This document shows positions 6,683-13,004 of a stretch of DNA of 64,000 nt, in pieces. Position 1 is the stretch's first letter. Each line of letters begins with the position of its first letter. Location of the stretch: NCBI RefSeq assembly GCF_009831455.1, contig NZ_WOWO01000004.1, positions 62,001 to 126,000 on the forward strand, read 5' to 3'. The translations under genes were made by a program, and so were the position numbers. Source of the DNA: Salinirussus salinus (GTDB lineage Archaea > Halobacteriota > Halobacteria > Halobacteriales > Haloarculaceae). The notes beneath the pieces are model-generated. The model saw only the letters and a program-made list of their open reading frames with translations, ran no database searches and had not been told where the DNA came from.

Positions 6683-6757
6683 AGCGGTGTCCCGAACCCA
6701 TCCCTTCGATAGCACCATATTGGTGCTCCCGCCAACCCACCCCGCTCTGCGGGGTAC

Positions 6758-8228
<1,471 letters not shown>

Positions 8229-8342: not shown

Positions 8343-8414
8343 GGGCCCATAGCTCAGTGGCAGAGCGCCGCCTTTGCAAGGCGGAGGCCCTGGGTTCAAA
8401 TCCCAGTGGGTCCA
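8343..8414 (+). tRNA. tRNA-Ala (anticodon UGC)
   Basis: A 72-nt cloverleaf in the 16S-23S spacer. Acceptor GGGCCCA pairs with TGGGTCC and contains the G3-U70 wobble pair that identifies alanine tRNA. Anticodon loop is CTTTGCAAG with TGC; the T arm is CTGGGTTCAAATCCCAG; discriminator base A at 8414; no encoded CCA. A spacer tRNA-Ala(UGC) is standard in archaeal rRNA operons. Confidence 0.97.
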
Positions 8415-8434
8415 TACTCCTGGCCGGAAAACGT

Positions 8435-8450
8435 GCCCCTTAAGTGGGAC
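8435..8450 (+). promoter_or_regulatory. Probable internal rRNA promoter in the 16S-23S spacer
   Basis: GCCCCTTAAGTGGGAC carries the same CCTTAAGTG core as promoter P3 upstream of 16S, 21 bases after tRNA-Ala. An internal promoter between 16S and 23S is known in other haloarchaea; initiation here is inferred from the box alone. Confidence 0.55.
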
Positions 8451-8547
8451 ACGGCGTTCGGTCAGGACACGACCGATGCACCACCCCGTGTGAGCGCGGG
8501 TGGGAAGGGTTGATGCAGGTCCCGTTCACCACGGGGCTGTAGATGAG

Positions 8548-8590
8548 ACCGTGTGTACGTGCGATCCAGGCGTCCACTGGACTCGTGTAT
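8548..8590 (+). other. 23S precursor processing stem, 5' strand with BHB motif
   Basis: Bases 8548-8569 pair with 11654-11675. GCGT (8570-8573) pairs with GCGC (11647-11650) with one G-U. The bulges are CCA (8574-8576) and AAT (11651-11653). CTGGACTCGTGTAT (8577-8590) pairs with 11633-11646. This is a canonical bulge-helix-bulge substrate for excision of pre-23S. Confidence 0.95.
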
Positions 8591-8602
8591 TCGAGTTCAT
8601 CG

Positions 8603-8625
8603 GGTGGGTCCATCCCGGACCCACC
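8603..8625 (+). other. GC-rich hairpin before 23S
   Basis: GGTGGGTCC (8603-8611) and GGACCCACC (8617-8625) form a perfect nine-base-pair stem with loop ATCCC. It lies within the 23S processing stem, directly before the tandem repeat at 8630. Confidence 0.8.
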
Positions 8626-8629
8626 ATTC

Positions 8630-8701
8630 GTGAGTGTGACAACTCACACCGTTGTGAGCCTGACGGCTCACACATTCGTGAGTTTCACAACTCACACCAT
8701 C
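8630..8701 (+). repeat. Three 24-nt tandem hairpin repeats upstream of 23S
   Basis: Three units start exactly 24 bases apart (8630, 8654, 8678). Each has the frame GTGAG, two bases, TGAC or TCAC, two bases, CTCAC, then AC and four variable bases. The two-base parts are TG/AA, CC/GG and TT/AA, so the second and third units change both sides together and keep a seven-pair stem with a four-base loop. This pattern of paired changes suggests selection for RNA structure. The repeat ends about four bases before mature 23S. Confidence 0.9.
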
Positions 8702-8705
8702 GACG

Positions 8706-11617
<2,912 letters not shown>

Positions 11618-11632
11618 ATTTCCGCATGACTC

Positions 11633-11675
11633 ATACACGAGTCCAGGCGCAATCTGGATCGCACGTACACACGGT
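11633..11675 (+). other. 23S precursor processing stem, 3' strand with BHB motif
   Basis: ATACACGAGTCCAG (11633-11646), GCGC (11647-11650), bulge AAT (11651-11653) and 11654-11675 complete the stem begun at 8548. Confidence 0.95.
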
Positions 11676-11749
11676 TTCCGCATCACCACCGGTATCGGAT
11701 CCCGAGGGAGTTCTCCCTCGCTGTCGCGGTTCGACTCCGCGAACCGGCG

Positions 11750-11871
11750 TTAAGGCGGCCACAGCGGCGGGGCAACACCCGTACCCATCCCGAACACGGA
11801 AGTTAAGCCCGCCAGCGTTCCGGCAAGTACTGGAGTGGGAGACCCTCTGGGAACGTCGGTTCGCCGCCTCC
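11750..11871 (+). rRNA. rrf: 5S ribosomal RNA
   Basis: About 122 nt beginning TTAAGGCGGCCACAGCGGCG and ending near TCGGTTCGCCGCCTCC, so the 5' and 3' ends pair. The conserved internal stretch CCCGTACCCATCCCGAACAC is present. It follows 23S by about 130 bases, which include a hairpin (GAGGGAGTTCTCCCTC, 11704-11719). Confidence 0.96.
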
Positions 11872-11969
11872 CATTCATACTCATTCCACTTCGAGCGGCC
11901 GCTCCGTGCGGCCGCCGCCTTCCCTACGACGAGTGGCGACACTTCGCCGGTCCGCTGGCGGTTCGTTAG

Positions 11970-12888: not shown

Positions 12889-12964
12889 GCCAAGGTGGCA
12901 GAGTCTGGCCGAACGCGTCCGCCTGCAGAGCGGATCATCCCCGGTTCAAATCCGGGCCTTGGCT
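12889..12964 (+). tRNA. tRNA-Cys (anticodon GCA)
   Basis: A 76-nt cloverleaf: acceptor GCCAAGG with CCTTGGC; anticodon stem TCCGC/GCGGA around loop CTGCAGA; T arm CCCGGTTCAAATCCGGG; discriminator T, as in cysteine tRNA. No intron, no encoded CCA. In many haloarchaea this gene directly follows 5S; here about 1 kb intervenes. Its 3' 24 bases are repeated at 13063-13086, marking it as an integration site. Confidence 0.97.
12941..12964 (+). repeat. att-like direct repeat, copy 1 (tRNA-Cys 3' end)
   Basis: The last 24 bases of tRNA-Cys, beginning CCGGTTCAAATCC and ending CTTGGCT, are identical to 13063-13086. This is the usual signature of tyrosine-recombinase integration into the 3' end of a tRNA gene. 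Confidence 0.85.
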
Positions 12965-13004
12965 CTTCTCGCGCGAGCACGCCGCGAGCGCGTGCGAGCT
13001 CTCA

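Follow-up and report, generated by a model that had tools for sequence, protein, structure and literature searches.

The window analysed here is a 64-kb stretch of the Salinirussus salinus genome. It carries the one rRNA operon found in this 3.37 Mb genome: 16S rRNA (6758-8228), tRNA-Ala (8343-8414), 23S rRNA (8705-11617), 5S rRNA (11751-11872) and tRNA-Cys (12889-12965). The 23S start at ~8705 was placed by homology, and the match to the Rfam model begins at 8700. The 23S gene, its processing stem, its leader and the hairpins described below are all on the plus strand. The two strands of the processing stem (8542-8600 and 11626-11684) were identified by cofolding 8540-8606 with 11618-11690, and the 3' strand was also recovered as a 46-base minus-strand match. 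The cofold (-90 kcal/mol) contains a BHB motif in which a middle helix (GCGT/GCGC) is flanked by the bulges CCA (8574-8576) and AAT (11651-11653), and this motif is kept in relatives. In Haloferax volcanii, the BHB is the mapped site of cleavage and ligation (PMC7038931). By analogy (PMC7038931, PMC7714728), the splicing endonuclease is expected to cut between 8575 and 8576, and the leader kept in circular pre-23S rRNA would be the 129 nt from that cut to the 23S 5' end (8576-8704). Both strands of the inner BHB helix (8576-8600 and 11626-11645) are self-palindromic (e.g., GGACTCG...CGAGTTC), so the long-range stem would face competition from two local hairpins.

An array of four tandem predicted hairpins (8603-8695) lies in the stretch that separates the BHB processing stem from the 23S 5' end. 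Hairpin 0 (8603-8625; GGTGGGTCC/GGACCCACC, 9 bp, loop ATCCC) was located by the perfect-hairpin scan and by folding. It lies directly upstream of a 24-nt repeat, to whose units it is unrelated and which accounts for the other three hairpins. The repeat finder returned three copies of a 26-nt unit (8625-8650, 8649-8674 and 8673-8698) at spacings of exactly 24 and 24 nt, copies 2 and 3 matching copy 1 at 69% and 92% identity. Hairpin 2 (8653-8672; TGTGAGCC/GGCTCACA, 8 bp, loop TGAC) and hairpin 3 (8678-8695; GTGAGTT/AACTCAC, 7 bp, loop TCAC) differ by paired changes, CC/GG versus TT/AA. In hairpin 1 (8630-8647; GTGAGT/ACTCAC), TG lies opposite AA, so that the innermost pair is broken (G versus A) and only 6 bp form; an alternative register (8634-8649) pairs GTGTGA/TCACAC. 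The last hairpin is joined to 23S by an unpaired A/C-rich segment, ACCATCGAC (8696-8704), and across leaders of at least 75 nt this segment is ~80% A+C.

The original prediction had described three units with an exact 24-base period, placed inside the 23S processing stem and outside the BHB motif. The period was reproduced by the repeat finder, the flanks cofold into the BHB around the repeats, and the BHB is formed by 8542-8600 and 11626-11684, separately from the array. The count of three is correct for the repeat units and one short for the array, hairpin 0 having been missed. Likewise, the paired changes that had been ascribed to every unit were borne out for units 2 and 3 and not for unit 1; a hairpin can be formed by all three. 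The array had also been said to end about four bases before 23S; the last hairpin in fact ends at 8695, ~9 nt before the homology-based start at 8705 (8700 being the Rfam model start).

The predicted fold of 8625-8700 has a z-score of -5.8, and none of 200 shuffles folded as well. Three perfect hairpins (at least 6 bp, loop 3-6) within 80 nt are found only at the array in the entire window; the same scan of 20 shuffled windows returned no cluster in 17 and one in each of three (mean 0.15). Raw folding energy was rejected as evidence, many segments of the GC-rich 64 kb being equally strong. A search of 8415-8720 with the Rfam 15 covariance models gave no match up to E = 10. When no distance limit was imposed on folding, units 1 and 3 paired around unit 2, because they share 92% identity, giving -36.7 kcal/mol versus -30.1 kcal/mol for the local hairpins. 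A long-range duplex of this kind is unusual, as 51 of 57 long leaders gain 3 kcal/mol or less over their local hairpins.

The leader was compared with its counterparts in a sample of 186 distinct BHB-to-23S leaders from Halobacteria (27-271 nt), with some genus labels taken from named relatives in the same 23S tree. The inner BHB strand makes up the first 27 nt and is locally palindromic in 184 of these leaders; only hairpins beyond this palindrome were counted. Leaders longer than ~45 nt almost always carry sequence-variable local hairpins, the number per leader ranging from 0 to 6 and rising with leader length by one per ~30 nt (r = 0.94, 186 leaders). No structure is seen at 45-55 nt (median z 0.0); the count is then about one hairpin at 55-75 nt (median z -2.5), two at 75-110 nt (-5.1), three at 110-150 nt (-7.6) and five at 150-300 nt (-9.6). 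Five to six hairpins are present in Halobacterium, four to five in a Halapricum-type clade, two to five in Halorientalis, three in Halosimplex, two to three in Salinibaculum and Halovenus salina, two in Halorubrum-like genomes, one in nearly all Natrialbaceae and none in Haloferax, Haloarcula and Natronomonas-type genomes. Hairpin arrays are real and widespread in Halobacteria, with conserved structure, free sequence and variable copy number. No loop or stem motif conserved across genera was seen. A fixed 24-nt period was discarded as a general property, the linkers being mostly 0-10 nt and the stems 5-14 bp. In a thin sample of 16 leaders from other families of the phylum, inspection of predicted folds by eye found no arrays, and the BHB-like motif lies close to 23S.

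Two further observations were made in this sample. The longest leader (271 nt; L022 and L292, genus g33, Halobacteriaceae) is built of ~40-nt units in which two hairpin types alternate (A B A B A), and the two types also cross-pair strongly. One haloarchaeal rRNA operon close to that of Halovenus (L146) lies on a contig titled Candidatus Nealsonbacteria, which is probably a binning error in the public record.

Judged from the sequences, both the number of hairpins and their sequence change rapidly. The 23S tree requires at least 19 transitions between array (two or more hairpins) and no array, and the clade nearest the window includes hairpin-free members with 27-nt leaders (L008, L050 and L109). 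The original prediction had proposed a comparison with a second operon. The window's genome has only the one, so the operons of relatives were compared, and their leaders differ: L011 has four hairpins and L213, from the same genome, has one, while L024 has three and L247 has none. Unrelated 23S leaders within one genome were seen in four cases (L011/L213 in G003, L034/L199 in G135, L201/L006 in G020 and L024/L247 in G031), one member of each pair having two to four hairpins and the other none or one. The second leader type in these mixed-operon genomes is often a recurring sequence, ACTGGACCCGTTTCATCGTGGAACGTGTGTCCGAC, common to several genera.

Pairing was nevertheless kept while the letters changed, as became apparent from the comparison with other haloarchaea that had also been proposed: unit number and sequence both vary, but the loss of pairing that the original prediction had named as its refutation was not seen, as related units retain their pairs. 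Alignments for Halobacterium, Natrialbaceae and the Halapricum-type clade were made with MAFFT from sequence only. Among nine Halobacterium sequences, 97.5% of cells were paired and eight pairs had changed on both sides (20 such cells), a result equalled by none of 500 shuffles; slid controls gave 26-47% pairing and at most one compensatory pair. In the extra hairpin of Natrialbaceae, seven of nine pairs were compensatory (19 sequences, chosen for alignment without register shifts), and five Halapricum-type sequences gave five compensatory pairs, versus none or one in slid controls. The window's units were aligned with those of Salinibaculum, Halovenus and L146 (n = 13), all excised manually around the palindrome, a choice that biases towards pairing; in this set 96.3% of cells were paired and five of nine pairs had changed on both sides (0/500 shuffles for both cells and score). 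Their outer GTGAG/CTCAC is nearly constant, and the inner pairs change together. In Halosimplex the variation is confined to loops and linkers and the stems do not change, so that alignment shows no covariation. In Halorubrum-like genomes the linkers are conserved and the stems vary; this alignment was left out of the count owing to unequal stem lengths.

The leaders are also biased in composition. G makes up 5% of linkers and 7% of loops, versus 31% of stems, and 7.7% of all unpaired positions, versus 11.5% in shuffles. Minimum-free-energy folding leaves unpaired bases G-poor in shuffles too, so part of this depletion is a folding effect. GC skew, which is independent of folding, is -0.18 in leaders; in the neighbouring spacer, the BHB stem excluded, it is +0.02. 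Long leaders of little structure also occur, in genus g49 (Haloferacaceae; L264, L309, L307 and L306; 127-200 nt), where relatives with hairpin arrays stand beside the largely unstructured, G-poor L264 and L309. The structure of L309 (127 nt, 15% G) is no better than chance, and its relative L264 (200 nt) has little.

It is conceivable that paired changes arise without selection, if slippage expands palindromes whose arms are kept complementary by template-switch (quasipalindrome) mutation as the DNA is replicated. With template switching, a change in one arm can be transferred to its partner, and the tandem duplication of units and the fast turnover of number and sequence are in keeping with such a process. 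However, a DNA process would treat both strands alike, whereas among 146 unique stems defined by Watson-Crick pairs G-U was found 22 times and A-C 8 times (binomial p ~0.02), an excess that favours selection on the sense RNA. The lack of G in the leader is also strand-specific, and the invariant stems of Halosimplex, amid varying loops and linkers, and the conserved linkers of the Halorubrum-like genomes, amid varying stems, likewise speak against mutation alone. An origin without selection therefore appears unlikely.

The explanation we favour, with a probability of about 0.6, is that the array is a variable number of hairpins that would keep the pre-23S leader structurally insulated and dispensable. 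During transcription of the leader, every palindrome of 18-25 nt would snap into a local hairpin, separated from its neighbours by G-poor, A/C/U-rich linkers. Packed into such self-contained units, the leader would not pair with nascent 23S rRNA and would leave the long-range BHB stem undisturbed. Following cleavage and ligation at the BHB, the array of Salinirussus salinus would sit in circular pre-23S rRNA and be removed once the circle is cut open close to the 23S 5' end. Tandem duplication would add hairpins and deletion would take them away, and selection would act on local pairing and on G-free unpaired parts rather than on sequence, number or period.

Insulation and dispensability are favoured because structure is kept, sequence is free, number is labile and the array is absent in close kin. 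The main reason for preferring insulation is that long leaders are either built of hairpins or poor in G, so that by one means or the other they appear shielded from pairing with other RNA. Several findings speak against it: folding gives the duplex of units 1 and 3 in the window a better predicted energy than the three hairpins, part of the G depletion is a folding effect, leaders of 27-45 nt suffice for numerous haloarchaea, so that no general benefit comes from the array, and L309 and L264 are long leaders without a proper array. L309, being unstructured with 15% G, is an exception that fits insulation. The role of the array is most likely the passive one of keeping the leader self-contained. 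The original prediction had offered a remnant of an expanded leader as one possibility; 'expanded leader' is close to the reading favoured here, while 'remnant' does not suit hairpins under constraint.

The other possibility offered was a binding site for a maturation factor. More generally, the repeated hairpins or their linkers could be a specific docking site for such a factor or for the endonuclease that opens the pre-23S circle. The array adjoins the 23S 5' end, hairpins precede the mature 5' end in 16S leaders too, and GTGAG/CTCAC outer stems and ATTCG-like linkers are common to units within one genome and its sister genera. Common descent would, however, explain the shared outer stems, and stem, loop, number, spacing and period all change among genera. 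Moreover, the sister clade (L008, L050 and L109), Haloferax, Haloarcula and Natronomonas have no array, and operons with and without arrays coexist in one cell. These observations make a docking site improbable, and the suggestion of a dedicated factor-binding site is not supported. A bolder reading is that the array is an active element of 50S biogenesis that sets the site and time at which circular pre-23S rRNA is opened, or a stable circular RNA with a role of its own, with copy number tuning the effect between species and between operons of one cell; this is speculative and improbable. Least probable is that the excised array acts as a functional small RNA, possibly circular. In its favour, a 2025 report describes small ITS2-derived circular RNAs of Halobacterium salinarum with ends at a BHB site and near the start of 23S (PMC12558985), and the leader of this species has five hairpins beyond the BHB-proximal one. 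Against it, leader circles are to be expected as side products when cleavage is followed by ligation, and the arrays have no conserved sequence for acting on a target and are absent in many species.

Natural variants with 0 to 6 hairpins, occurring within a genus and even within a cell, would allow direct tests of the leader's role. A 2021 review describes the archaeal enzymes that open circular pre-23S rRNA or make its 5' end as not yet characterised (PMC8339473). The survey also links the arrays to reported leader-derived circular RNAs in a tractable species, and the wide differences in leader length between operons bear on primer design and operon typing.

In Haloferax volcanii and Sulfolobus, circular pre-rRNAs arise from BHB processing stems (PMC7038931, PMC7714728); the array is enclosed by this kind of stem and should therefore belong to circular pre-23S rRNA. 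Unlike the window's, the H. volcanii leader is short and has no array (37-38 nt in the Haloferax leaders surveyed), and the words 'hairpin' and 'stem-loop' do not occur in the main texts of these two papers. The reported ends of the H. salinarum ITS2 circles would bracket the leader homologous to the window's, and these circles would match excision of that hairpin leader; the available part of the report describes no hairpins and makes no interspecies leader comparison (PMC12558985). In H. volcanii pre-16S rRNA, an as yet unidentified RNase opens the circle at the mature 5' end, leaving the leader joined to the trailer at the 3' end (PMC11602121). Should 23S follow this route, the array would become a 3' tail before its removal. 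No description of these arrays was found in the open-access literature searched; the classic Halobacterium rRNA spacer and archaeal spacer-structure papers of the 1980s-90s were beyond reach, and priority is uncertain.

A similar arrangement was seen in haloarchaeal 16S 5' leaders, which have at least two sequence-variable local hairpins between the BHB and the mature 5' end. Most of those inspected carry such hairpins (three in Halobacterium), and in the window two of them, AGCACCATATTGGTGCT and CCCCGCTCTGCGGGG, lie directly before 16S (leader 6688-6757). Their number looks near-fixed and conserved CCGCC linkers lie between them, whereas 23S leaders have from 0 to 6. Expansion segments of rRNA and length-variable transcribed spacers also occur in bacteria and eukaryotes (for 5S, PMC7812874). 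Such structured insertions share variable length, conserved folding and free sequence with the array, which differs in lying within a discarded leader, at one fixed place, and in being composed of discrete tandem hairpins.
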